Shown here piece after piece: positions 14,543 to 27,962 of a stretch of 33,622 nucleotides of DNA (position 1 is the stretch's first letter; each line of letters begins with the position of its first letter). Below the pieces are notes generated by a model, which saw only the letters and a list, made by a program, of their open reading frames with translations, had not been told where the DNA came from and made no database searches. Origin of the DNA: Clostridiaceae bacterium. Lineage in GTDB: Bacteria; Bacillota; Clostridia; DUPQ01. The DNA is taken from contig JAAYBX010000042.1 in NCBI GenBank assembly GCA_012729955.1, forward strand, positions 1 to 33,622, read 5' to 3'. Both the position numbers and the translations under genes were made by a program.

Positions 14543-15388
14543 TTATTTTAATACTTTTGCCAGTTTCTGAAGACCTTCTTCGAAGTTAACACCAAAACGG
14601 ATGTCGGTTTTTGCTTTATATGTACGGATAATGCTTTCTACTGTGAAATCAACAGCTACCGCTGCAGAATCAATAAGGTTCTTACCCTTCATCATAGCAG
14701 ACAGCAGCGCGCTTCCAAAAACATCTCCAGTACCATGATAATACCCTTTGATGCGTTTCTTTGCATAGAACCCGAATTCGTCAGCTTTCTTGTCATATGT
14801 TGCAGCACCAAGTTCCTTTTCGTTGTAATTTACACCTGTTAAGATAACTTTATCTGGTCCCATATCAGCAAGACTCAGTAGCAGATCTTTAATATACTGC
14901 TCGGTATATGGACCTTCTTTGTATTCCTTACCAAGCATAAAACAGGCTTCTGTTATATTCGGGACAACTGCATCAGCTTTAGAAGCAAGTCTTTTCATTC
15001 CTTTTGGAAAATCCGGACCAAAAGCTCCATAAAGTTTACCGTTATCAGCCATTACAGGATCTACAAGCGTTATTAAATCTTTTGTTTTGTATGTATCGAA
15101 TATGCTCGATACTATATCAATCTGTTCAAAAGACCCAAGATACCCTGTATACAGCGCGTCATATCCAATATCCAGAGTTTTCCAGTGCTCCACTATCGGC
15201 ATAATATCCTCGGTAAGATCTCTGAATGTAAACCCTGTAAAACCTCCGGTATGTGTCGATAATACAGCGGTCGGGATAACTGTGCACTCTATTCCCGCTG
15301 CAGATATTATCGGTAATGCTACTGTCAATGAACACCGTCCGAAACAGGATATGTCATGTATTGCTAATACTCTCTTCTGTCTTTCCAT
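14543..15388 (-). CDS. pdxK: Pyridoxamine/pyridoxal kinase
   Basis: A 281-residue PfkB-fold kinase that phosphorylates pyridoxal, pyridoxamine or pyridoxine to salvage vitamin B6. The start AIHDISCFGRCSLTVALPI is the typical opening of the Firmicutes pyridoxamine kinase group. Further motifs are AVLSTHTGGFTGF, ALYTGYLGS, LVDPVMADNGKLY (substrate/metal), VVPNITEA and YYHGTGDVFGSAL, where GTGD carries the catalytic base Asp. Complete. The ATG at 15388 has GAGGTGG upstream. It lies 60 bases after orf111 with no promoter or terminator visible between, so it is probably cotranscribed and placed under the riboswitch at 15821-15938. Confidence 0.92.
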   Translation of the reverse strand: MERQKRVLAIHDISCFGRCSLTVALPIISAAGIECTVIPTAVLSTHTGGFTGFTFRDLTEDIMPIVEHWKTLDIGYDALYTGYLGSFEQIDIVSSIFDTYKTKDLITLVDPVMADNGKLYGAFGPDFPKGMKRLASKADAVVPNITEACFMLGKEYKEGPYTEQYIKDLLLSLADMGPDKVILTGVNYNEKELGAATYDKKADEFGFYAKKRIKGYYHGTGDVFGSALLSAMMKGKNLIDSAAVAVDFTVESIIRTYKAKTDIRFGVNFEEGLQKLAKVLK

Positions 15389-15448
15389 GCTGCCACCTCA
15401 TCTATTTATGCAGAATAATATGCTTTCGCTATATTCTAATATATACAA

Positions 15449-15784
15449 TCAGTATAACTGTGTCAAATAGTTTTCCATCTCTTTTATAACCATTTCAGTG
15501 TCTGCATATGCAAAATACTCATGTTCTCTTCCTATCATATAAATCTGTCCTGATACAAAACCCATGGTGTGCTCGCTATTCAAGCTCATAAATCCTCCAC
15601 AGTTATCCATATCAGGTTCAATTTCGTCACCATTAATCCATTTGAATTCCTTTTTTTTAGCGTATCTTAAAAAAGCATATTCCCTTTCCCTGTTATTCAT
15701 AAGGCTGAAGAATACTGCTCTTCTTTTCTCGCCTGGTTTCAAAAACCACTCTTCCATCTCAGCAATTGAATTAATTTTCTTCAT
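15449..15784 (-). CDS. Unrecognised 111-residue protein behind a SAM-I riboswitch
   Basis: I do not recognise this family. It is a soluble, acidic small protein with no signal peptide, membrane segment or CxxC motif. It has aromatic-rich stretches (IYMIGREHEYFAYAD) and a Gly/Met-rich middle (NCGGFMSLNSEHTMGF). The start ATG at 15784 has a strong AGGAGG at 7 bases. A longer in-frame ATG at 15865 would start inside the riboswitch aptamer and is rejected. The upstream RNA suggests that its expression falls when S-adenosylmethionine is abundant, so a role in methionine, sulfur or methyl metabolism is likely. Its neighbour is pyridoxamine kinase, which supplies PLP, a cofactor of methionine-biosynthetic enzymes. 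That functional link is inference. Confidence 0.8.
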   Translation of the reverse strand: MKKINSIAEMEEWFLKPGEKRRAVFFSLMNNREREYAFLRYAKKKEFKWINGDEIEPDMDNCGGFMSLNSEHTMGFVSGQIYMIGREHEYFAYADTEMVIKEMENYLTQLY

Positions 15785-15820
15785 TTCTTTTCCTCCTATA
15801 TTTTTTCTATAAAGAGAGGC
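15785..15820 (-). promoter_or_regulatory. Predicted ribosome-binding-site sequestering hairpin of the SAM-I riboswitch
   Basis: Read leftward, bases 15817-15808 can pair with 15800-15792, with one bulge and three G-U pairs, burying the whole GGAGG of orf111. The same upstream arm (15816-15807, CTCTTTATAG) is perfectly complementary over 10 bases to CTATAAAGAG at 15934-15925, which includes the 5' side of aptamer helix P1. Ligand binding would hold P1 and free the arm to hide the ribosome-binding site. Without ligand the long-range pairing would open it. This is an OFF-switch model by hand folding. Confidence 0.5.
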
Positions 15821-15938
15821 AAAAAAATACCCATCACGACAGGATGAGTTAATCCCATCATTCAAGCTTTAGCACCTTGTCCCCGACAGGTTGCTGTGTG
15901 GTCATTGAGCTTGTCTCTCGCACACTCTTTATAGGTTC
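15821..15938 (-). promoter_or_regulatory. SAM-I (S-box) riboswitch aptamer
   Basis: Leftward RNA with the SAM-I layout. P1 is ACCUAU (15936-15931) with AUGGGU (15834-15829), followed by the conserved AAGAG joint. P2 outer helix is GUGUG (15925-15921) with CACAC (15900-15896). Within it, GAGAGA-CAAG-CUC-AAUGA aligns position by position with the family core GAGGGA-CUGG-CCC-GAUGA. The loop CAAGCU (15913-15908) can pair with AGCUUG (15868-15863), as in the family pseudoknot. P3 uses GCAACC and GGUGCUAA, both exact consensus. P4 is GAUGGG/CUCAUC. Base changes against the consensus are compensated in helices, which argues for a functional, diverged aptamer. Confidence 0.88.
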
Positions 15939-15943
15939 TTTTT

Positions 15944-15972
15944 ATTATACATCAAATTACTGAATTTGTCAA
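15944..15972 (-). promoter_or_regulatory. Perfect-consensus promoter for riboswitch-orf111-pdxK
   Basis: Read leftward, TTGACA (15967-15972), exactly 17 bases, TATAAT (15944-15949). The start would fall near 15937, just before the riboswitch P1 helix. A perfect sigma-A promoter implies strong constitutive initiation, with control left to the RNA. The remaining bases 15973-16047 hold no gene and only a weak CGATAA/TTATCG hairpin after the permease gene. Confidence 0.85.
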
Positions 15973-16047: not shown

Positions 16048-18381
16048 TCAACTGCTGGGTTTTCTATTCTTTATAATGATTACTTTGTTAAATTTAATAT
16101 AAAGGATAATAAAACAGACAATGCATGCAATAACCAGAACAATGCTTTGTATTGTCAGAGCAAGACTTAAGGTTGCAAGTCTGTTCCCATATAAAAATAC
16201 ATTCATCAGAATGTCAGACATTTCTCTTATGCCGGAGAAGGACAGGAATGCCGGTAATACGAAAGCTGCCAATGATATGGATGCTGTAACTATAGGTTCT
16301 CCTGTGTAATGAGATACCAGATTTATAAATGTTGCCATAACGATTAGTCCTATGAACTTAACTGCAAACAACCAGATAAAATACTCCAGTACAGATATCT
16401 CCAAAGGTAGTAATGCAAAATCTTCCATACAAGCAATAGGAGCATCCAGGCAAGCAAATCCGCTTTCTTTTGAGAACTTGATTATATATGGCAGGTATAC
16501 GGTTATAAGCACAATCAAGGAAATAATTAAAGTTATTATCTGTTTGTACCAGAAGGTCCTCTTCCTACCGTATACTGTATATGTAATGACTTCATAGGTA
16601 TTATTCTTAATCTCAACCGCAAAAATGCCTGATATGCAGAGAACTATAAGAACTGATGCATATAGCGCGGTAAACCTTGTAGTAGTTCCGTCAGTGAATA
16701 TTTCCTTATATCCCCTTTCATATATAAAGGAGATATTCCGTCTAATCGTCTGGTCGTTAGCGACATCATACAGATTATGCAGCCTGTCATCCTTAGCGAT
16801 TAATGACATAATGACCTCAATCTGGTCAGTATATGAGTTATATGTGTCCTCTTTCTGCTTTTTTTTGATTTCAATAAGGTTTTCTTTAAGAAAAACAGAT
16901 TTTGTGTCTGATATAGATCCTTCAAGCACCTCCATATACTTCATATATATGAATTCTTTTTTATTCAGTATCTCAGAAGGCTCCCGGGGATGTACAGTCG
17001 CAATCTGAATTATGCAGAAAACCAGAAGTATTATTATTACCGGATTTATTACCATGCTTTTATAAACTTCATACCAGAAGATTCCTGCAACAGGGACTTT
17101 TCTTTTCCTGGCTTTTAACAAAATACCGGATGATGCATATGTTCTTTCTTTTTTCTTTTTAGAAATATGTATACAGATATAAAAAGCTGCAAAAGTTCCG
17201 ACACATATAGTGATCAAAAAAAGCAGCAGGTATGATACCGGATAATTCAGAATATTTATGTTAAGATACTCGATTAATGCTCTGCTAATGTCAAGAAAGT
17301 GGTATGCATTAATGTATTTGAACACATTAAAAAAGGATACCGATGAAATCCCTTTGTTTAAAATATAAGCTGTCCCCATGACCAAAAGAATTCCGACAAT
17401 ACCTTTAAGTGAGTTACTAATGGTGACGAAAATCAGCAAATTTACAGATGATAGAAATATCATTACAGCAACAAAAAGCAATATATACAGTACAAGATAT
17501 CCACCGACACTTATTTCATATATCGAGGATCTGAATCCGTAAACCGATTGTAAAGGCATTGAAATGTCGCCAAAGCCATACAGTAGATAACTTATAACAT
17601 AGGATGACAATACGGTTACTGTTACGCTTACCGACACGAAATAATACATACTTATCAATTTTGACGTCATAAGTTGTTTTCTTCCTCTTTTCATAGTCCG
17701 CAAAAGTTCAAGATTATGGCTATCCCTGTCTTTTGTAAAAGTTTGTATGCAGACAAATATGCCAAATACCCATAGAAGTATCGGGGTGATCCCGTTTCTT
17801 GTCGCACACAGCACACCTTTTGAGCTATTGAACCGTACCATTTTTATATCAAGGCTGTTGAAGTCATCATAAGTTTTAGAAGCATTTCTAATTGTGAAAG
17901 GTGTATCACTGAAAATTGAAGACTTTTTCAGCTGTTCAGCACGATTAATGACAGACTGTATATATTCATCATATGAATATGCACTCTCCACCTCAAGAAG
18001 TTTCTGTCTGAAAAGGCTTAAATCCCTGTATGCAATATCTGTATATTTGTCATAATCACCCTTCCTATATCTTTCCACCAACTTATTTATATCATAATCA
18101 GGATACTCTGTTTTAAATATTCCTATAATATCCTGCCGGTCCATTATTGCTATATTCTGAATTATGATTTGCTCATTGAGATACTTTTCTGCTTGTGTTT
18201 TGTCCATACCCATGAGCAGCTGGTCAAGTTTTCTGATACTTCTGATATCAGCATCAAATCCGAAATCTATTCTCTCAGAAATATATACAGCTAGCATATT
18301 TATAGCTAACAGACAAACCAGAAATATTATTGCTGACCTGTTCAGGAAGGATTTTCTTAACTCATGGGTTATCAGATTCAC
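16048..18381 (-). CDS. Duplicated ABC-2 type permease, 12 membrane segments
   Basis: A 777-residue membrane protein built from two similar halves. Each half starts with a short amphipathic stretch (HELRKSFLNRS; YEVYKSMVINP), then a first membrane segment, a large polar loop probably outside the cell (about 36-195 and 455-590), then five more membrane segments. This is the ABC-2 topology with a large loop after the first segment, present twice in one chain, so one polypeptide could form the whole channel. It overlaps the ATPase gene by 4 bases and is the last gene of a four-gene unit with two lipoproteins. Substrate unknown; export of a peptide or lipid, or an efflux or sensing function, is possible. 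No terminator is clear downstream. Confidence 0.8.
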   Translation of the reverse strand: MNLITHELRKSFLNRSAIIFLVCLLAINMLAVYISERIDFGFDADIRSIRKLDQLLMGMDKTQAEKYLNEQIIIQNIAIMDRQDIIGIFKTEYPDYDINKLVERYRKGDYDKYTDIAYRDLSLFRQKLLEVESAYSYDEYIQSVINRAEQLKKSSIFSDTPFTIRNASKTYDDFNSLDIKMVRFNSSKGVLCATRNGITPILLWVFGIFVCIQTFTKDRDSHNLELLRTMKRGRKQLMTSKLISMYYFVSVSVTVTVLSSYVISYLLYGFGDISMPLQSVYGFRSSIYEISVGGYLVLYILLFVAVMIFLSSVNLLIFVTISNSLKGIVGILLVMGTAYILNKGISSVSFFNVFKYINAYHFLDISRALIEYLNINILNYPVSYLLLFLITICVGTFAAFYICIHISKKKKERTYASSGILLKARKRKVPVAGIFWYEVYKSMVINPVIIILLVFCIIQIATVHPREPSEILNKKEFIYMKYMEVLEGSISDTKSVFLKENLIEIKKKQKEDTYNSYTDQIEVIMSLIAKDDRLHNLYDVANDQTIRRNISFIYERGYKEIFTDGTTTRFTALYASVLIVLCISGIFAVEIKNNTYEVITYTVYGRKRTFWYKQIITLIISLIVLITVYLPYIIKFSKESGFACLDAPIACMEDFALLPLEISVLEYFIWLFAVKFIGLIVMATFINLVSHYTGEPIVTASISLAAFVLPAFLSFSGIREMSDILMNVFLYGNRLATLSLALTIQSIVLVIACIVCFIILYIKFNKVIIIKNRKPSS

Positions 18382-19283
18382 TTGATAAGTTCCTTTTCCC
18401 TTTCCTCATCAAATACAGAAAGATACACATCTTCAACAGTTGCCCTTATCATTCTGTAATCATATCCGTACAAATCTTTCTTCTCACTCTGGTTTTCCTT
18501 AAGAAGGATGCGGACGATAATGCTTTCTGTTGTTTTCTGAATATTACAGACTTCAAAGCGTGATAATATCTTCTCAAGGTTTTCTTCATAAGTCTTTATC
18601 TCGAACACCCTGTTTTCAAGTGATTTACATAACCTGTCTGGGGTATCATGGTATATAAGACGGCCTTTTTTTATAAGTATGATTTCTTTGGCGATATACT
18701 CGACATCAGACACTACATGAGTCGCGATTATCACTATCCTGTTCAGCGCATATCCTGATATCAGGTTCCTGATACGGATCCTTTCTTTCGGATCAAGACC
18801 TGCAGTCGGCTCGTCCAGAATGATAATTTTAGGGTCTCCGATCAATGCCTGTGCAAGCATCAGTCTTTGCTTCATTCCTCCTGAGAATGTACCTATACGC
18901 CTGTCAGACACTTCAAGTAGATTGACTGCTTTTAAAACATATTCTACCTGTCTATTCATCTCTTCTCTTCGTAAGGCTTTCAGTGCTCCTATATATGAAA
19001 GATACTGTGCTGCCGTGAAGGAAGGATAAATGCCATCCTGTTGCGGCATATACCCCAGATATGATCTGAATGAAAGTCCCAGGTCTTTTATATCCACACC
19101 GTTAAGCGATATCTCTCCGGAGTCGCAACTGATGCTGTCAGTTATTATTCGGATGAGGGTTGTCTTACCTGCACCGTTCGGACCTAGAAGACCATAAACC
19201 CCGTCCGTCAGAGTGGCAGAAAATTTATCCAATCCTTTTATCATACCATATGTTTTGCAGATTCCGTTTATTTTCAATTCCAT
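18378..19283 (-). CDS. ABC transporter ATPase
   Basis: A 301-residue ATPase, partner of the following ABC-2 permease. It has Walker A LGPNGAGKTTLIR, the Q-loop in YMPQQDG, signature FSGGMKQRLMLAQAL, Walker B IIILDEPTAGLDP and switch His in IATHVVSD. GMKQR signatures and the NGAGK form are typical of the CcmA/NatA group that works with ABC-2 permeases. After residue 220 comes an extra C-terminal domain of about 80 residues, common in this group. The ATG at 19283 has AGAAGGA upstream, 17 bases after the preceding lipoprotein gene. Confidence 0.92.
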   Translation of the reverse strand: MELKINGICKTYGMIKGLDKFSATLTDGVYGLLGPNGAGKTTLIRIITDSISCDSGEISLNGVDIKDLGLSFRSYLGYMPQQDGIYPSFTAAQYLSYIGALKALRREEMNRQVEYVLKAVNLLEVSDRRIGTFSGGMKQRLMLAQALIGDPKIIILDEPTAGLDPKERIRIRNLISGYALNRIVIIATHVVSDVEYIAKEIILIKKGRLIYHDTPDRLCKSLENRVFEIKTYEENLEKILSRFEVCNIQKTTESIIVRILLKENQSEKKDLYGYDYRMIRATVEDVYLSVFDEEREKELIK

Positions 19284-19300
19284 TTAAATATCCTTCTGAA

Positions 19301-20476
19301 TTATTCCATATCAACATATTGGGATGACCTTGCTATGAAATCCTTAATCCTCATATACCTGAATCCCCTTTTTGAATTTTCAAATGTGATAAGAAGAAGA
19401 TGCTCGTCATCAGCACTTGTAAAAAAGGACATAAACCTTGTCTCTGTACCGCTGTAAGCCATGTCGACTTCATATAAATACCCCTCTTTTGCATCATATA
19501 TATAGTTCTGCCAGTTGTCTTCAGGTGATGTGTCTTCATAATCAGTAGTTATAAAAAAGAAGTCATCAACAACAGAAGTCACTGATGCAATCCCATTAAT
19601 CTTTATCTCTTTTAGTATTGTTTCCTTCCTCGCATCCTTCAGTTCCAGTCTGACAATTTCCGCTTCCCCGTCTGTATTACTAGACAGGTAATACCCGTAT
19701 TCCTTATTGAAAACAACATATGCATACTGTTCCTCTGAATAAAGCGGTAATAGTATGCTTTCCATTGGAAGAAAGGTCTTCAGATCCACCCGCCTTATCT
19801 CATGTATGTTCTTTTCATAATCATGGTATATATATACAAGCATATCTTTGTATGTATGATATAAAACGTTGTAATCTTTTTTTCCTATAGGGTCCTTATA
19901 CATGACATCCATCTTATCAAGATCCACAACATATGTGGAAAAAACGTTGCTGAACTCGACTCCGAATTGATTATCATACGATTCCCTATATGATATTTCA
20001 ACACCGGTAAAGATAAGAAGATTATTATATACATGATAACCATCCAAAACCTTGTCAGTCTTGAGATAACCGGCTATTTTCCTGTTCTCTCCGTTTGCAT
20101 CGGATCTGTATACTGTTAGTTTATTGATAAAATCCCCGCTTGTAATCATGTATAAATGTTTTTTCGACAAAAATGCGGCTGATATGCTGTAACCTTCCGG
20201 TGATACAGCAGGACACTTCGGGTCAGGATTAGCATAGTAATCATATTTCTCATGAGTGCATTCAGGACGGCTGCATAATACTGTCGCTTCACCTGTTGAA
20301 TAATCATTATACATAAGTATCCCGTCGCTGTAAGATATGAGTCCGTTTGCCCCGAAAGAGGCTCCTGCTCCACCATAAAGGTTGTCGTTTGACACTGTCG
20401 TCCTGTTGCTGCATCCTGATATCATGAGGATTGAATTTATTGCTATAAAAAGTATAGTTAATTTCAGTTTACTCAT
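19301..20476 (-). CDS. Lipoprotein with a Cys/His cluster, beta-propeller-like
   Basis: A 391-residue lipoprotein: signal peptide ending ISGC with Cys22. Shortly after, residues GGAGASFGANGLISYSD and GILMYNDYSTGEATVLC lead to CSRPECTH and, 13 residues on, KCPA. A C-x4-C-x-H-x(n)-C pattern after an initial strand repeat recurs in many Clostridia lipoproteins of unknown role, in my recollection, and the rest of the protein has the alternating strand/turn texture of a beta-propeller (repeated YxxxD/NxLxxxY units). The Cys/His group could bind metal or form disulfides. The ATG at 20476 overlaps the upstream stop as TGATG; a GTG three bases earlier is possible. It is the second gene of the ABC cassette. 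Confidence 0.75.
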   Translation of the reverse strand: MSKLKLTILFIAINSILMISGCSNRTTVSNDNLYGGAGASFGANGLISYSDGILMYNDYSTGEATVLCSRPECTHEKYDYYANPDPKCPAVSPEGYSISAAFLSKKHLYMITSGDFINKLTVYRSDANGENRKIAGYLKTDKVLDGYHVYNNLLIFTGVEISYRESYDNQFGVEFSNVFSTYVVDLDKMDVMYKDPIGKKDYNVLYHTYKDMLVYIYHDYEKNIHEIRRVDLKTFLPMESILLPLYSEEQYAYVVFNKEYGYYLSSNTDGEAEIVRLELKDARKETILKEIKINGIASVTSVVDDFFFITTDYEDTSPEDNWQNYIYDAKEGYLYEVDMAYSGTETRFMSFFTSADDEHLLLITFENSKRGFRYMRIKDFIARSSQYVDME

Positions 20477-22212
20477 CACTTCATACCCACTTCTTTCCAG
20501 TATTCTTTTAACTGTCTATTAATTTCATTGATGAGCCTGTCATACCCAAGTTCCTTGAGTTTATAAGCTATTTCACTGATATTCTCCTTAAAACCTGAAG
20601 GATCTATTCTCCAGAGATCATCGCCCTCCTTACAAAGCCTGTCTATTTCAGAAAAATCATATTCCATTCCATTTAAATCAGGCTTAAAAGCATAATTTGG
20701 TGGAATATCGATATTCTCAATAATTACTGAGATGTTCTCCCTGTCAGAAATGCTCACACCGGATGGGTACATAAGATGCTTACAGGTTAATATCGCCCTT
20801 TGATAAATTCCCTGTAAATTAATCACGTTGTCGTTCTTATCATAATTCTCTCCATAATACATAAGATTTGACAGATACGGATCTGTGAACAATGTAGAAA
20901 GGAAGTCATATGCTTCATCAGGATTAAGAGACCAGGATGCTATTCCAACAAGATAAGATCTGTTACCTATTAATGTATATGGACTTGCTTTTATCTGGAT
21001 GTAGTCAGGCTCACTCCTTGCAGAAGAAAAATTATCTACAGTGAAAAATGTTAGATACTGCATATGTTTCTGAACTTTAGGTGATCTGGAAATCTGGAAA
21101 CCTCCTTCCTCTTTATTCTCGCTTCCATTAAAATATTGTTTTATTGCCCAGTCAGCAAGCATTTCGTTCAGATGGATATACTCCGGGTCTGTAAATCTGT
21201 TTATACAGAAAGCTTCGCCATTAGAATCATATTTATATGATAAATACTGATTTTTACCATCAGTAAAAATACCTGCGAGCTTCTGATATATGTATGAAGG
21301 CAGTCTGTTATCAATCAGCATAAGCCTCTGTTCTGTTATCTTTTCTGAAAAATCCTGATATAGGTTTTTATATAGTGTATCAATTTCCTCTATTAACATT
21401 TCAGTTTGGTCTATTCCGTAATCTATGATAATTTTTTTATCAATATTGATATTAAGATTTTCAATAAGACCATTGTTATATAATCCAAATATACCATCAT
21501 AATCAATAAAAAGTCCCCAGTATTCGGAAGGTAATGAATCATACAGCCTCATATCTTTCCTATCCGTTACATAATCTGAAATATCCATTAGAAGCCCGTC
21601 TTTTATCGCATATTCTCCTGGATTTTCCAAAGAAATGCCGCTTTCCTCTATCAATATTCCATTTTTAATATCGGTAACCGAATAACTAACTCGGGTCCCT
21701 GTAAATATAATGTCTATCTGTTGTCCTTCTTCTTTCATTTCCTTTATAAGGTCATAGAAATATTTGCAAACATCATTTACTCTGAAAACTGATTTTCTGA
21801 AACTATCATCTCCAAGCGACTGATAGTCCTTCGTTATCCTGTCGATAATGTTCATCTCATTCAAGAATTTTACGACATATCCTTTTCCCTGAGAAAAAAG
21901 ATAGTCATTATACAAGACAATAAGACTATCACTTATTTCAAATGGATATGGTTTTCTGTCTTTTTCTGCAAATACCAGCTGATTAAGATAATGAATAACT
22001 TCACTAACATCACTGTATGCAAGGATAAGTGTTTTTTTCTCCGGCCACATTAACTCATAATCGAGATTACCTTCAGCATCGTATATGATATTTCTCTCAG
22101 GTAAAACTGAAGGGACAGGTTTACTCGCAAAAGTCCCAACATCAGAAGAGCATGAACAAAATAACAAAAAGATAATAATTAATATAGCAGATGATTTTAA
22201 TAAACTTTTCAT
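20476..22212 (-). CDS. Large lipoprotein related to extracellular solute-binding proteins
   Basis: A 578-residue lipoprotein with a signal peptide ending in FCSC (Cys21 as the likely lipidated residue). The C-terminal half has features of family 1 solute-binding proteins: LVGIASWSLNPDEAYDFLS near residues 420-440, then FTDPYLSNLMYYGENYD, which is the usual helix that closes the ligand lobe. The N-terminal part (residues 60-200) is helical and includes FTGTRVSYSVTDIKNG. No ordinary carbohydrate importer permeases are nearby, only the ABC-2 unit, so it may be a sensor or a delivery partner. ATG at 22212 with AAGGTG upstream. A candidate promoter lies about 150 bases upstream. Confidence 0.72.
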   Translation of the reverse strand: MKSLLKSSAILIIIFLLFCSCSSDVGTFASKPVPSVLPERNIIYDAEGNLDYELMWPEKKTLILAYSDVSEVIHYLNQLVFAEKDRKPYPFEISDSLIVLYNDYLFSQGKGYVVKFLNEMNIIDRITKDYQSLGDDSFRKSVFRVNDVCKYFYDLIKEMKEEGQQIDIIFTGTRVSYSVTDIKNGILIEESGISLENPGEYAIKDGLLMDISDYVTDRKDMRLYDSLPSEYWGLFIDYDGIFGLYNNGLIENLNINIDKKIIIDYGIDQTEMLIEEIDTLYKNLYQDFSEKITEQRLMLIDNRLPSYIYQKLAGIFTDGKNQYLSYKYDSNGEAFCINRFTDPEYIHLNEMLADWAIKQYFNGSENKEEGGFQISRSPKVQKHMQYLTFFTVDNFSSARSEPDYIQIKASPYTLIGNRSYLVGIASWSLNPDEAYDFLSTLFTDPYLSNLMYYGENYDKNDNVINLQGIYQRAILTCKHLMYPSGVSISDRENISVIIENIDIPPNYAFKPDLNGMEYDFSEIDRLCKEGDDLWRIDPSGFKENISEIAYKLKELGYDRLINEINRQLKEYWKEVGMK

Positions 22213-22367
22213 ACTAACACCTTATTCTAACATATTTAATATGAGTCTTCATAATCTCAAATATGAATCGTGCAACTATATTGTCATATGATTTATCTTT
22301 TTTTCTATAATATACCATTTGTGTACATACATGTATTATTTTTTTGATTATCATTTTGTTTAATTCA

Positions 22368-22396
22368 ATTATATCAGAAAAACCCTAAAGTGATAA
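22368..22396 (-). promoter_or_regulatory. Candidate promoter for the lipoprotein/ABC-2 operon
   Basis: Read leftward, TTATCA (22391-22396), 17 bases, TATAAT (22368-22373) preceded by TGA, an extended -10. The leader would be about 150 bases and contains the palindrome ATACATGTAT near 22327-22336. The gap 22213-22461 holds no gene I can support. Confidence 0.55.
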
Positions 22397-22461
22397 ATTT
22401 ACTGAACATAAAATCTTTTATTTTGAAATAATTTTTAAATTTTATGCAAAAATAATACTTA

Positions 22462-22863
22462 TTATTGTAAAGCATTTAGATATTGGAATGCTTCGTTACC
22501 GTTAATATACCCTCTATGACTACTATATGCAGCTACAAATTGTCTATATCCATACTTCAGTTGACCAAAAATACCGATATAATCTACATAATCCTCATAG
22601 GTACCAACTTCATCAAAATACAAATTATCATCATAATCAATGTAATATGCAGTCAATGAAACACCTGCATATAAATTAACTATTGGTGGAAGTGGATCAA
22701 GTGAAGTATCTGCGCTTACAGTTGTATAAGTTACATCTATTGATCCGCTCCAATAACCGGATCCTAAGGGTTCCCAAAATGAGTTACTACCGGCAAAAAC
22801 AGATAATATTGAACATGATAATAAAATAGTAAGTACTACAGATAGTAATTTCCTTTTTTTCAT
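22462..22863 (-). CDS. Small secreted protein of unknown function
   Basis: A 133-residue protein with a clear Sec signal peptide: a basic start MKKRKLL, hydrophobic core VVLTILLSCSILS and probable cleavage after VFAG near residue 25. The mature part of about 108 residues is rich in Tyr, Gly and acidic residues (YIDYDDNLYFDEVGTYEDY) and has no cysteine. I do not recognise the family. Size and export suggest a bacteriocin-like, signalling or surface protein, but no motif proves it. ATG at 22863 with AGGAGGA at 7 bases; the in-frame ATG at 22887 lies upstream of that site and is rejected. It has its own strong promoter overlapping the end of the upstream DUF4180 gene. Confidence 0.7.
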   Translation of the reverse strand: MKKRKLLSVVLTILLSCSILSVFAGSNSFWEPLGSGYWSGSIDVTYTTVSADTSLDPLPPIVNLYAGVSLTAYYIDYDDNLYFDEVGTYEDYVDYIGIFGQLKYGYRQFVAAYSSHRGYINGNEAFQYLNALQ

Positions 22864-22896
22864 AATATATTCCTCCTGTTTATGCAATATATGGTA

Positions 22897-22925
22897 ATGA
22901 TAGCATTTAAATATAATAATGTCAA
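22897..22925 (-). promoter_or_regulatory. Strong promoter for the small secreted protein
   Basis: Read leftward, TTGACA (22920-22925), 17 bases, TATCAT (22897-22902): perfect -35 and 5 of 6 at the -10. The -35 overlaps the stop codon of the DUF4180 gene, so the secreted protein is probably transcribed on its own. Confidence 0.7.
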
Positions 22926-23296
22926 TAATTTAAGACATTGCACATCTTGTCCACAGCTGTCTGAATATCCTGAAGGAATAATATATCTCTCCCATTATTA
23001 CACTCATATATGAAATCTCTCAGACTTTTACTGGTATACATGGTAAAATCACCTACAATGGCAATCTTCTTTTGGTAGTTTATAAATTTCTGCAGTATGT
23101 CCCCTGCAATTTTTGTCTTAAGATCGAAAAATTCCTCACAAATAGCTGACTTGGATATTACTATATAGCTGCATCCAGTCTCGTAATCTACAGTCGCCAT
23201 GAAATCCAGCGCTGACTGGACATCCTTTATAATTACTTCTTCACTATATATAACAGCAATCTTAACCTTATTTTTTTCTATTACTCTAGTTTCCAT
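22922..23296 (-). CDS. DUF4180 domain protein
   Basis: A 124-residue cytoplasmic protein with the DUF4180 pattern: DVQSALDFMATVDYETGC, then ISKSAICEEFFDLKTKIAGD, and the best conserved stretch FINYQKKIAIVGDF followed by YTSKSLRDFIYECNNG and DILFL near the end. The fold resembles the STAS-like domains of the related DUF4325/STAS group, but no activity is known. Length is normal. The ATG at 23296 has only a poor ribosome-binding site (GGGG 13 bases upstream). It diverges from the GH78 gene across 93 bases that hold no clear promoter on the plus strand. Confidence 0.85.
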   Translation of the reverse strand: METRVIEKNKVKIAVIYSEEVIIKDVQSALDFMATVDYETGCSYIVISKSAICEEFFDLKTKIAGDILQKFINYQKKIAIVGDFTMYTSKSLRDFIYECNNGRDILFLQDIQTAVDKMCNVLNY

Positions 23297-23389: not shown

Positions 23390-25627
23390 ATGATTTTCGA
23401 AAACATAGATTTCATATCAGCAGGTCAAGCAGCAAAAGACAATGATAATGTGAATGATCCCGCCTTGATGTTCAGAAAGTTATTCCATCTTGAAAGCGGA
23501 TATACCAAAGCCATACTTTATGTTGCAGGTCTGGGTATAGGGTATCATTACATTAACGGCATCTCTGTGTCAGAGGATCTTTTCACTTCTGCTACATCAG
23601 AATATACAAAGACAATCTGGTATAACCGGTATGATGTAACAAATATTATCAAGCAGGGGGATAATACAGCCTGCTCTTTGCTTGGAAACGGTTTTTTTAA
23701 TGAGAGTCTAAAGACTGCATGGGATTTTGATAAAGCGCCTTGGCGAAATGTACCAAGATTAATTTACAGGCTTGATGTGTATTATGAAAAAGGAAAATAT
23801 ACAATCGTTTCAGATGAGTCCTGGAAAGTGACAGATAACTGCTATATAACATACAACCAGTTAAGAAGCGGGGAGCATTGTGATTTAAGAAAATATGATC
23901 CTTTGTGGATGCGTATGGATTATGATGATTCTTCATGGAAGAATGCAGTTAGGGTGACCAAACCTCCATATGCTGAATTCAGGGAATTAATAAGCCAGCC
24001 TATTAAAGAATGCGGTATATACCCGGTAAAGACTGTAAAAAAGACTTCAGCCGATACTTATCTATTTGATATCGGGCAGAATATCTCCGGATACATACGG
24101 ATAGATATAGATGAAGATATGGCAGACCCGATAACAATAAGGTATGCAGAAAGCATAAATGAGGACAAAAGCTTAAATCTTAACAAAATGGACAGATTCT
24201 ATAAGGAAAGCGCATTTCAAACAGATAGGATAATCCCATGTGGAACATGTTTCACATGGTCTCCCAAATTTACATATCACGGATTCAGATATATGGAAAT
24301 ATCGGGATTAAAAAAGAAGCCCAAAAAAGGCTCTGTAAAAGGGGTATTCGTACATCAGGATATAAAAAGAACTGCATACTTTGAGTGTTCAGATGAAAAT
24401 ATTAACCGACTATTCAATATGGGAATATTAGCTACATATTCAAACCTTTTCCATATACCCACTGACTGTCCTACAAGAGAGAAGTTAGGATGGACTAATG
24501 ATGCAAGGGCATCATGTGAGCAGATGCTTATTAATTTTGATATGAAATTGTTTTTCGCAAAATACATGCAGGATATATATGATGCAATGCTGGATGATGG
24601 CGCTCTTCCAGGCATTATTCCTTCTTCAGGCTGGGGATACCAATGGGGTTCAGGCCCCATATCTTCGGGTATACTATATGAAATACCTTACAGGTACTAC
24701 ATATATACAGCTGATGATCTTCTTCTTAAAGAATCCTACCCATACTTTTTAAGACATCTTGAGTTTATTAATAACAGAAAGAATGAAGATGGTTTAGTTT
24801 CCTACGGATTATGTGACTGGGCAGGACCATATGAGCAACTTGATAAATCACCAGTACCTTTGGAGCTGACTGATTCCATAATGTATTACTCTTTTCTGAG
24901 TACTACAGTTTTAACCACAAAAATGCTGGATTTACCTATTCATGAGAAATGGCATATTGAAAAGGAAGATATTAAGAACAGAATAATTGAGAAATATATT
25001 GATAACAATGGCAGATGTACCATAGATGAACAGACATCGATATCCATGCTTATATATTATGATTTATTTGAGCATATCGAACCTTTAAAAGAGCAATTAA
25101 GGGAAAATATTGAAAAGCATGATTTTCATCATTACTGCGGGATGCTTGGGTTAAGGCATCTTTATGATGCTTTGACAAAATGTTCTTTAAGTGATTATTC
25201 ATACAGGATAATAACTGCAAATGGATATCCAAGCTATTTTGACTGGATAACTAAGAGGGATGCGACAACTCTGTGTGAAACTTTTCAGGATTCAAACTCA
25301 CAGAATCATCATATGTGGTCGGATTTCATGGCATGGATAATGAAGAACCTAGCAGGTATACAGCCAAAATCTGCAGGATTTGATGAGATATCAGTATGTC
25401 CGTATTTTCCCTATAATCTGAATTATGTAAATGCCTTCATAAATACCCCAAAAGGTAAAATATCAGTATCCTGGAAAAAAATAAAAAATATTGTCAATTT
25501 TTCAATTTCAATACCTTCTGGTTCAAAAGCGGTAATATATTTGCAGAATGCAGTTTTTACAGAAACTGGACTTAATGAAGCTTCATATGATGCAGGAGAT
25601 TATGAGCTTGTGCTTAAGGTAAATTAA
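23390..25627 (+). CDS. Alpha-L-rhamnosidase-like glycoside hydrolase, GH78
   Basis: A 745-residue protein without a signal peptide, so it should act inside the cell. N-terminal beta domains (about 1-330) include GYHYINGISVSEDLF and LLGNGFFNE, typical of the Bac_rhamnosid N-terminal module that contacts substrate, and FDIGQNISGYIRI. The catalytic (alpha/alpha)6 domain begins near residue 335. The signature IPTDCPTREKLGWTNDA (about 356-372) carries the general-acid Glu of the REK subgroup. The catalytic-base Glu fits ATTLCETFQDS near 625, followed by HHMWSDFMAWIMKNLAGI. Both catalytic regions are present. It would remove terminal L-rhamnose from imported glycosides. ATG at 23390 with AAGGAG; a TTG 15 bases earlier overlaps that site. 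No rhamnose catabolic genes lie nearby. Confidence 0.87.
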   Translation: MIFENIDFISAGQAAKDNDNVNDPALMFRKLFHLESGYTKAILYVAGLGIGYHYINGISVSEDLFTSATSEYTKTIWYNRYDVTNIIKQGDNTACSLLGNGFFNESLKTAWDFDKAPWRNVPRLIYRLDVYYEKGKYTIVSDESWKVTDNCYITYNQLRSGEHCDLRKYDPLWMRMDYDDSSWKNAVRVTKPPYAEFRELISQPIKECGIYPVKTVKKTSADTYLFDIGQNISGYIRIDIDEDMADPITIRYAESINEDKSLNLNKMDRFYKESAFQTDRIIPCGTCFTWSPKFTYHGFRYMEISGLKKKPKKGSVKGVFVHQDIKRTAYFECSDENINRLFNMGILATYSNLFHIPTDCPTREKLGWTNDARASCEQMLINFDMKLFFAKYMQDIYDAMLDDGALPGIIPSSGWGYQWGSGPISSGILYEIPYRYYIYTADDLLLKESYPYFLRHLEFINNRKNEDGLVSYGLCDWAGPYEQLDKSPVPLELTDSIMYYSFLSTTVLTTKMLDLPIHEKWHIEKEDIKNRIIEKYIDNNGRCTIDEQTSISMLIYYDLFEHIEPLKEQLRENIEKHDFHHYCGMLGLRHLYDALTKCSLSDYSYRIITANGYPSYFDWITKRDATTLCETFQDSNSQNHHMWSDFMAWIMKNLAGIQPKSAGFDEISVCPYFPYNLNYVNAFINTPKGKISVSWKKIKNIVNFSISIPSGSKAVIYLQNAVFTETGLNEASYDAGDYELVLKVN

Positions 25628-26799
25628 TTATACCAGCCATATTGTCTAACAGTCTGGTACATAGCATATATGTTTTCATTAGGTGTAAATGGTGACAGAT
25701 TATTGGCATCCCTCATTACAAACCTGTCTGTATAAGGCATTACCTCATCCATTATCCTCTTCGTTTCCTTAGCTATCTCCTCAGGCGTCTTCTGCATAAG
25801 GTCATCGCATCTTACACCACCATTGATTCTTACTATATTTGGATTCAAATCCATTACCATCTTCTTAAAATTGACCGGATATCCTGTGTCAAAAGAATGA
25901 ATGTGAAGGTTTTCCTGCAAAAACTTAAAATGTCTTTGAGCATTTCCGCATAAATGTATAGAGTTTACGCTGCTGTCAAAGTCCTTAACCAATCCGGTAA
26001 TAAGCTTTTTATGATAAGGGAATATCATTTCTTCATACATATCAGTAGAAAGCAAGGCAATAGAATCATCAGCAAAACCGAAATTCTTGACTGTTGTATC
26101 AAAATTAAAATGTTTCCATAATCCCTTTAGTCTGAATATGATTGCCTCCACAAGATAATCCATCAGTTCTTCAGCATAATCAGGATCCTCAATAAGATCC
26201 ATGCAGAAGTTTTCCGTACCTCTTATCATACATGCCAAAGTCATAGGCCCGTCTGTTCCTATCCCGCTGAAACCGACTTTTTTAATCGGCAGCCCTTTGT
26301 ATGTGTATCCGCTCTTTTGAAGCTCAAGCATCTCGTTATACAGTCTTAATGATCTTCCCTCAAAATTATCAAAAATCCCTGGAAATGGTTTGTCAAATAA
26401 AATATTTTTGTCATCACCTAAAAGGAATGGTTCGCAGAAAGGTACATTATTCTTTGCATACTGCACCTTGGCTCCAAGCCAGCCTGTTTCATGAAGATTC
26501 TGTCTGTCAACATAAACTGACCACCCATCTTTTGGCATTCCCATTTCATGATCTGCATATATTTCATGTCTCATCATGTCTTCAAACTGGCAGTATACAT
26601 CAGTCATCATCTTTGCATCATTAAAATACTGCTCAAAGGTATATCCATTTGTATTCAGTTTCTTGTCAAGCAGAATAATCCTGTTATTCCCATACACCAT
26701 ACAGGGCATCCTTATAGGCTTGCCTTTTTCGTATGATTCCCACACCTTTTTTGATTCTTCATTATGCTTTTCATAGTCTTTGTCGAATTGAATATCCAT
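25624..26799 (-). CDS. URO-D-fold protein, methyltransferase-like (paralogue A)
   Basis: A 391-residue member of the uroporphyrinogen decarboxylase superfamily. It is not HemE: the opening is wrong and the conserved decarboxylase start is absent. The IHLCGNAQRHFKF stretch near 283 has the HxCG form that binds zinc in MtaA/MtbA/CmuA-type corrinoid methyltransferases, and a later Cys occurs in INGGVRCDDL. ADHEMGMPKDGW and MIRGTENFC are shared with the next gene. No corrinoid-binding protein is nearby. ATG at 26799 overlaps the stop of paralogue B as TAATG, with GGGTGG upstream; a GTG at 26808 is an alternative. Its 3' end overlaps that of the convergent GH78 gene by 4 bases. Reaction unknown. 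Confidence 0.82.
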   Translation of the reverse strand: MDIQFDKDYEKHNEESKKVWESYEKGKPIRMPCMVYGNNRIILLDKKLNTNGYTFEQYFNDAKMMTDVYCQFEDMMRHEIYADHEMGMPKDGWSVYVDRQNLHETGWLGAKVQYAKNNVPFCEPFLLGDDKNILFDKPFPGIFDNFEGRSLRLYNEMLELQKSGYTYKGLPIKKVGFSGIGTDGPMTLACMIRGTENFCMDLIEDPDYAEELMDYLVEAIIFRLKGLWKHFNFDTTVKNFGFADDSIALLSTDMYEEMIFPYHKKLITGLVKDFDSSVNSIHLCGNAQRHFKFLQENLHIHSFDTGYPVNFKKMVMDLNPNIVRINGGVRCDDLMQKTPEEIAKETKRIMDEVMPYTDRFVMRDANNLSPFTPNENIYAMYQTVRQYGWYN

Positions 26800-27962
26800 T
26801 AATACCACCCATTCTCCCTTACTGTTTGATACATAGCATATATATTTTCAAAAGGTGTACATGGCGAGAGATTATTTGCCTCTCTCATAACAAATCTGTC
26901 AGTATAAGGCATCACCTCATCCATTATCCTTTTTGTTTCCTTTGCTACTTCTTCTGGTTTTTTCTGTAAAAGATCATCTACCCTGACTCCGCCATTTAAC
27001 CGTATTATATCACTTCCCAGCTCTGTTGCTAACTTCTTAAAATTAATCGGATATCCTGTATCAAAAGAGTATACTCTTAAGTTATCCTTAATAAACTTGA
27101 AATGCCTCTGAGCATCTCCGCATAAGTGTATTGAGTTTATACTGGTATCGAAATCTTCCAGTAAAAGCGTAAAAAGCTTTTTATGATGAGGAAATATCTT
27201 CTCTTTATACATATCACAGGAAACAAGCGCAATTGAATCATCCCCAAATCCATATCCGTCATTGACCTCTTTAAACCCGAAGTGCTTTCGTAATCCTCTT
27301 ATACGAAAAGTTGCAGCTTCTACAAGGTAATCCATAAGTTCATCAGCATATACAGGATCTTCAATAAGGTCTGCACAGAAATTTTCAGTACCTCTTATCA
27401 TACATCCCAAGGTCATAGGCCCGTCTGTTCCCATAGAACCATACACTACTTTTTTAATTGGTTTTCTTTTATACTCATATCCTTCTTTCTGAAGCTTCAG
27501 CATCTCATTGTATGTTGCGTATGCAAGTTCTTCAAAATTACCAAACAGCTTAGGGAAAGGTTTTTTGAGAAATTCATATTTGTTGTCCTCATCAAGGAAC
27601 GGTTCTGTAAAAGGAACATTGTTTTTCGCGTAAACTATTTTAGCTCCGAACCAGCCGCATTCATAAAGATTCTGCTTGTCTACAGATATAGTCCACCCTT
27701 CTTTTGGCATGCCCATTTCGTGATCGGCATAGATATTGTGGCGCATCTGATATTCACATTCACAACATACTTCCGTCATTATCAGCGGGTCATGAAAATA
27801 ATGCTCGAATGTATATCCTTTTGTGTTAAGTTTGCCATCAAGCATTATTACCCTGTTGTTGACACCAAGGATTACTGGCATCCTTAAGGGTTTTTTTGCG
27901 TTATATGAGTCCCAGACCTTCTTTACTTCTTCATTATGCTTCTCATAATCCCTGTCAAACAC
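26799..27962 (-). CDS. URO-D-fold protein, methyltransferase-like (paralogue B)
   Basis: A 387-residue tandem paralogue of the following gene, about two thirds identical by eye over the full length, so the pair arose by duplication. The HxCG zinc-type motif is kept (SIHLCGDAQRHFKF), but the later Cys of paralogue A is Val here (NGGVRVDDL). Where A has GFADDSIALLS, B has GFGDDSIALVS. The start appears to be GTG at 27962 with AGAGG 10 bases upstream; an ATG at 27969 is out of frame and stops after four codons. Together A and B may form a heterodimer or act on two related substrates. Function unknown. Confidence 0.82.
   Translation of the reverse strand: MFDRDYEKHNEEVKKVWDSYNAKKPLRMPVILGVNNRVIMLDGKLNTKGYTFEHYFHDPLIMTEVCCECEYQMRHNIYADHEMGMPKEGWTISVDKQNLYECGWFGAKIVYAKNNVPFTEPFLDEDNKYEFLKKPFPKLFGNFEELAYATYNEMLKLQKEGYEYKRKPIKKVVYGSMGTDGPMTLGCMIRGTENFCADLIEDPVYADELMDYLVEAATFRIRGLRKHFGFKEVNDGYGFGDDSIALVSCDMYKEKIFPHHKKLFTLLLEDFDTSINSIHLCGDAQRHFKFIKDNLRVYSFDTGYPINFKKLATELGSDIIRLNGGVRVDDLLQKKPEEVAKETKRIMDEVMPYTDRFVMREANNLSPCTPFENIYAMYQTVRENGWY

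Follow-up and report, generated by a model that had tools for sequence, protein, structure and literature searches.

A P4-less SAM-I riboswitch precedes a family of small clostridial proteins linked to SAM synthetase genes

We analysed 33,622 nucleotides of clostridial DNA (hereafter, the window) and found a SAM-I (S-box) aptamer directly upstream of orf111, a gene for a 111-residue protein of an undescribed family. S-boxes recur ahead of orf111 homologues in other genomes, where the SAM synthetase gene metK repeatedly lies next to the small gene and is fused to it in two cases, and the aptamer contains a pseudoknot that covaries between homologous leaders. Our preferred reading, which we hold with a probability of about 0.6, is that the locus is a mobile SAM-OFF cassette under dual control that yields a MetK-linked accessory protein under SAM shortage. 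We propose more tentatively, at slightly under even odds, that the P4-less S-box, a third mutually exclusive helix and a MetK accessory or regulatory family together form a new SAM-responsive module that is mobile between lineages. The features of the locus are collected in Table 1.

Table 1. Features of the S-box, orf111 and pdxK locus in the window.
Feature	Coordinates	Strand	Basis
Sigma-70 promoter of the S-box transcript, TTGACA-N17-TATAAT	15944..15972	-	12/12 consensus
SAM-I (S-box) aptamer, P4-less, with P1, kink-turn P2 and P3	15852..15937	-	RF00162, 57.1 bits; covariation in 13 leaders
Pseudoknot replacing P4, L2 CAAG (15913-15910) with CUUG (15866-15863)	15863..15913	-	Covariation in 13 leaders
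Antiterminator, GAUGGG-AUUAA-CUCAUC	15843..15859	-	Sequence; 5' side shared with the P1 3' strand
Intrinsic terminator stem, then a T-run to about 15821	15829..15849	-	Sequence, 3' of the aptamer
Anti-P1 element, CUCUUUAUAG	15807..15816	-	Covariation, permutation test, models of Shine-Dalgarno accessibility
Shine-Dalgarno sequence of orf111, AGGAGG	15792..15797	-	Sequence
orf111, 111-aa protein of an undescribed S-box- and metK-linked family (ATG at 15784, stop at 15449)	15449..15784	-	Homologue searches; no family match
Second promoter, for pdxK, TTGACA-N17-TATATT, inside the 3' end of orf111	15438..15466	-	11/12 consensus
pdxK, pyridoxamine kinase	14543..15388	-	NF005491, 313.8 bits (cut-off 231)

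The window leader contains a SAM-I aptamer without P4

A cmscan search of the whole window returned RF00162 (SAM) as the sole Rfam match, at 57.1 bits and E = 7.8e-11 on the minus strand. The score exceeds the gathering cut-off of 44.4 bits, and the match covers the full length of the model (positions 1-108). The SAM-I aptamer of the original prediction, with its P1, AAGAG joint, kink-turn and GCAACC, is thus real, although that prediction overlooked both the absence of P4 and the promoter of pdxK described below. The window aptamer shares with SAM-I the helices P1, kink-turn P2 and P3, the AAGAG joint, the conserved core of GCAACC and GGUGCUAA, and the L2 pseudoknot (PK-1). It differs in that the P4 positions of the model are deleted from its alignment to RF00162, and a 4-5 bp partner of the L2 pseudoknot stands right after P3. 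We treat P4 as a variable peripheral helix because the curated RF00162 score is still passed without it. Short aptamers of 84-91 nt also occur ahead of metK in the same lineage, where P4 is likewise lacking, and in most S-boxes of the distant family described below. SAM-IV riboswitches also lack P4 while retaining PK-1 (PMC6890682), but the window aptamer shows no sign of their P5/PK-2 arrangement: its P3 loop is short, and no PK-2 strand is evident by inspection. RF00162 is the best match within its clan, ahead of RF01725, and the aptamer does not belong with SAM-IV or SAM-I/IV (RF00634, RF01725). The 2.28-Mb assembly contains only two S-boxes, the second of them upstream of metK.

Comparison of 13 aligned leaders of homologous orf111 genes supports this anatomy. 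Pairing reaches 97.8% in the aptamer helices, where eight pairs are doubly changed. It is 100% in the L2-J3/1 pseudoknot, where three of the four pairs have changed on both sides, giving the variants CAAG/CUUG, CUGC/GCAG, CAGC/GCUG and CAGA/UCUG. From its sequence, the window RNA would be expected to bind SAM. The perfect promoter reported earlier ahead of the aptamer is confirmed, and its predicted +1 is the first base of the aptamer. As in other SAM-I leaders, a terminator/antiterminator platform follows. The window leader differs in having a second platform element, past the terminator, that can pair with either the 5' strand of P1 or the Shine-Dalgarno sequence.

An element beyond the terminator is predicted to expose or bury the Shine-Dalgarno sequence

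The post-terminator element CUCUUUAUAG is perfectly complementary over 10 nt to CUAUAAAGAG (15934-15925), which comprises the 5' strand of P1 and J1/2, and it can pair instead with the Shine-Dalgarno region. All 13 aligned orf111 leaders carry a CUCUUUAUGG-like element 3' of the terminator that complements CCAUAAAGAG, again the P1 5' strand and J1/2. The resulting anti-P1 helix is paired in 93.8% of alignment cells, compared with 42-64% when the strands are slid against each other, and covariation is limited to three doubly changed pairs of ten because the element sequences are A/U-rich. Across 84 S-box leaders, native anti-P1 pairs far exceed permuted ones in stability (sum -775.9 versus -650.2, sd 14.1; z = -8.9; 0 of 5000 permutations), a signal to which relatedness among the leaders may still contribute, as kinship is not fully removed by the permutation and shuffle tests.

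We assessed the accessibility of the Shine-Dalgarno sequence using nearest-neighbour energy models that leave out the pseudoknot and the ligand. In the window leader, the predicted openness is 0.03 with P1 formed and 1.00 with the anti-P1 helix. The corresponding values with each helix forced are 0.10 and 0.96 for the 13 aligned leaders, and 0.15 and 0.82 for 27 orf111 leaders, in seven of which P1 fails to bring openness below 0.3. As a control, metK leaders of the window's own lineage keep their Shine-Dalgarno sequences 0.65-0.92 open with P1 forced, and strong anti-P1 pairing was looked for in those metK S-boxes and not found. The models predict that the SAM-bound fold buries the Shine-Dalgarno sequence and that the SAM-free fold exposes it, so that one switch would combine transcriptional with translational control. 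Putative dual control of this kind is supported by the comparison of leaders as well as by the energy models.

Dual-platform riboswitches, in which the 3' side of the terminator bears the ribosome binding site, are known in other classes, and in these the ligand lowers both transcription and the translation of read-through RNA (PMC2258182). The window leader is predicted to resemble them in that SAM would reduce transcription and, on read-through, translation. It differs in that the Shine-Dalgarno sequence lies outside the terminator and would be freed by a helix with the 5' strand of P1 itself. We found no description of such a helix between P1 and a post-terminator strand in open-access PMC text. 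A 100-nt S-box upstream of metK in another genome (L094, G880) has a perfect 12-nt complement between its P1 5' strand and the sequence before the Shine-Dalgarno (UAACUUAUUAAG / CUUAAUAAGUUA), and the anti-P1 element is therefore not confined to orf111 leaders.

The element could alternatively be non-regulatory, with CUCUCUUU conserved for transcript stability or as part of an upstream short ORF. Its sequence frequently translates as MGFFxxLF..., its base composition is strongly biased, and shared ancestry may supply part of the signal. The reading frame nevertheless differs between homologues (for example, MGFFVLSLWK* in L068 and MGFSFALFMEIKK in L076), and complementarity to P1 is kept, with matched changes in L075, in L077 and in the window and its sister locus L035. 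We consider this alternative unlikely, though it retains some weight. A short ORF running across the terminator was rejected since its frame is unconserved.

Homologues of orf111 are consistently preceded by S-boxes and often adjoin metK

The order S-box, orf111 (71% identical), pdxK is repeated in a sister species (G003). A contig search with the single orf111 sequence gave nothing, and a two-sequence profile led to L060, a locus in a distant Clostridia MAG. There, an S-box is followed by a homologue of 87 aa (45% in its best-matching segment), and metK begins 5 nt past the stop codon of the homologue. Homologues are present in 27 of 287 genomes of this distant family, one of the matches being weak, and a class-wide search added a further one (G320). 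Of the intact homologues whose upstream DNA could be read, all 27 have an S-box directly upstream. Those counted are the window, G003, G774, G792, G828, G850, G870, G900, G923, G924, G933, G941, G951, G967, G320, G976, G977, G983, G990, G993, G1004, G1009, G1019, G1029, G1031, G1036 and G1042; the S-box of G923 scores 42.3 bits, under the gathering cut-off. The count leaves out G901 and L059, which lie at contig edges, the decayed copy in G001, and G934, where the upstream DNA is replaced and the reading frame interrupted. A weak profile match in G926 (L215, E = 4.5e-4) has no S-box and was treated as an unproven homologue.

In about 15 homologue genomes (G901 included), the metK start coincides with or closely follows the stop of the small gene, or the two genes are fused; in L077 (448 aa) and L211, an orf111 homologue is joined in frame to a complete MetK. 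About half of the homologues, including that of the window, do not adjoin metK, and in G941, G967, G924 and the window genome the S-box of orf111 is separate from the one belonging to metK. The original prediction had proposed looking for S-boxes upstream of orf111 homologues and for a link to methionine metabolism, and both are present. The gene orf111 is an S-box regulon member linked to methionine/SAM metabolism. Known S-box regulons comprise methionine, cysteine and SAM genes, as in C. difficile (PMC11477304), and genes under SAM riboswitches that lack an assignment have been mentioned in a general way (PMC3766115). The S-box metK genes of Clostridia, for example in C. difficile (PMC11477304), share the placement of the switch directly ahead of the SAM synthetase gene. 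The orf111 family differs by adding a small protein, which is encoded between the switch and metK, forms a fusion with MetK, or has an S-box of its own.

Other ORFs are found in a similar position. At L168, L171, L172, L173 and L165, an ORF of 80-110 aa lies right behind an S-box, with metK next in L168, L172 and L173, and a 250-aa ORF (MKNKIILHLPHSSTKLPRFYKRR...) separates S-box and metK at L129 (G906). Homology of these small ORFs to orf111 could not be demonstrated (hhalign probability 0.2% for L168, L171 and L172/L173), and a range of small proteins apparently occupies the position between S-box and metK.

Orf111 belongs to an undescribed family and is most likely a MetK accessory protein

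The small protein had been called unrecognised, and it stays so: neither orf111 nor 14 of its homologues have a significant match in Pfam, NCBIfam, PHROGs, PADLOC or the PDB. Weak matches of the family to Imm6, a PHROG, FosB and Cas9 were rejected as single-member or sub-threshold. No description of the family was found in open-access PMC text. The AlphaFold model of the window protein is poor (two sequences, pLDDT 56), while the L060 homologue is predicted to have an alpha/beta fold (three sequences, pLDDT 77.7, pTM 0.70) that has no match in the PDB. This predicted structure comes closest to uncharacterised phage proteins (Foldseek probability at most 0.98, TM 0.55-0.58, E 0.02 or weaker), such as D4N4K7 of Leuconostoc phage 1-A4, which resemble it in fold but have no sequence match. 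The predicted fold gives no function.

We infer that an accessory or regulatory role towards MetK is the most likely function of Orf111 because of its predicted low-SAM expression, the metK neighbourhood and the MetK fusions. The link to MetK is based on gene neighbourhood and two fusions. Orf111 might instead be cargo with no part in SAM metabolism, such as a phage-derived or defence-type small protein that is produced once SAM is depleted, for instance by a phage SAM lyase. The phage-like predicted fold of the L060 homologue (probability 0.98, TM about 0.55) would fit such an origin, as would fast divergence, standalone copies, decay together with the S-box, the disrupted copy in G934, and the near-identical weak S-boxes at contig ends of G901, G971 and G967, that of G967 two genes before a serine recombinase. 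We regard this as distinctly unlikely, since there is no PADLOC match, homologues were not found in the phage and plasmid records and viral contigs searched, and the repeated adjacency to metK with two MetK fusions would be hard to explain.

The pyridoxamine kinase gene appears to keep its own promoter

The S-box had originally been predicted to control both orf111 and pdxK. The first part is supported; the second is not. Although pdxK starts at 15388, 60 nt past the orf111 stop as reported, the motif TTGACA-N17-TATATT stands directly upstream of it in all four congeners, two of which have no working orf111. The gene is conserved in G001 (91% identical), where the S-box and orf111 are visibly decayed remnants ahead of an intact pdxK, and in G002 (87%), where both are absent. 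Because pdxK is retained without the S-box and keeps its own promoter, the S-box belongs to orf111. It is probable from these comparisons that pdxK is not obligately under S-box control; SAM could act on it through read-through only, which may add expression but is not needed. A single S-box operon tying SAM to PLP supply is improbable: the 60-nt gap has no terminator in two species and read-through is possible, but the pdxK promoter is common to four congeners, pdxK survives without S-box and orf111 in two of them, and pdxK follows no other S-box examined. These findings correct the proposal that the S-box regulon reaches PLP supply through a vitamin B6 kinase at this locus.

The cassette was probably acquired horizontally

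S-boxes of the distant family match the window orf111 aptamer at up to 89% identity, whereas its identity to the metK S-box in the window genome is 71%. Together with the patchy distribution within the genus, this makes a horizontally acquired cassette the simplest reading, and we consider such an acquisition probable.

The surroundings of the locus also vary. In G003 (L035) and G001 (L180), the S-box follows immediately after a DUF4180 gene. In the window, the DUF4180 gene (22922-23296) is separated from the S-box by a segment of about 6.9 kb (16048-22887, minus strand) encoding an ABC permease, an ABC ATPase, two lipoprotein-like genes and a 141-aa secreted protein, which looks like an inserted transporter and secreted-peptide cluster. 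Two similar tandem genes of about 390 codons at 25624-27962 (minus strand), which by eye we take to be of the uroporphyrinogen decarboxylase or corrinoid methyltransferase type, are kept beside the locus in G003. The weak S-box-like aptamers at contig ends (L174, L175 and L176, in G901, G971 and G967, respectively) score 38 bits and are 97 nt long. In L176, the aptamer is followed by a 134-aa ORF and the serine recombinase, as if on a mobile element.

A proposed mechanism of dual control and its implications

We propose that the cassette is self-contained, consisting of a promoter, a P4-less SAM-I aptamer, a terminator, an anti-P1/anti-Shine-Dalgarno element and orf111. With SAM bound, P1 and the terminator would form, and in any read-through RNA the post-terminator element would fold onto the Shine-Dalgarno sequence, so that orf111 would be off at two levels. 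Without SAM, the 3' strand of P1 would build the antiterminator, while its 5' strand and the AAGAG joint would pair with the post-terminator element, locking the aptamer open and freeing the Shine-Dalgarno sequence; orf111 would therefore be made when SAM is scarce. Members of the family (about 85-110 aa) would then have SAM synthetase as their target or partner, most likely serving MetK as an accessory or regulatory domain. Within the window's genus Orf111 would work in trans, as metK has its own S-box elsewhere, and the acquired cassette would have landed ahead of pdxK, which keeps its own promoter.

The leader is predicted to exemplify a terminator-type riboswitch that adds translational control by means of its free P1 strand, and the anti-P1 element is a reason to inspect other S-box leaders past the terminator. 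SAM synthetase is essential, and no small bacterial partner of the Orf111 kind is known to us for this enzyme. The linkage between S-box and orf111 suggests that a component of SAM control has gone unrecognised, and a family linked throughout to S-boxes and fused to MetK at least twice would offer a direct, testable route to a MetK partner.
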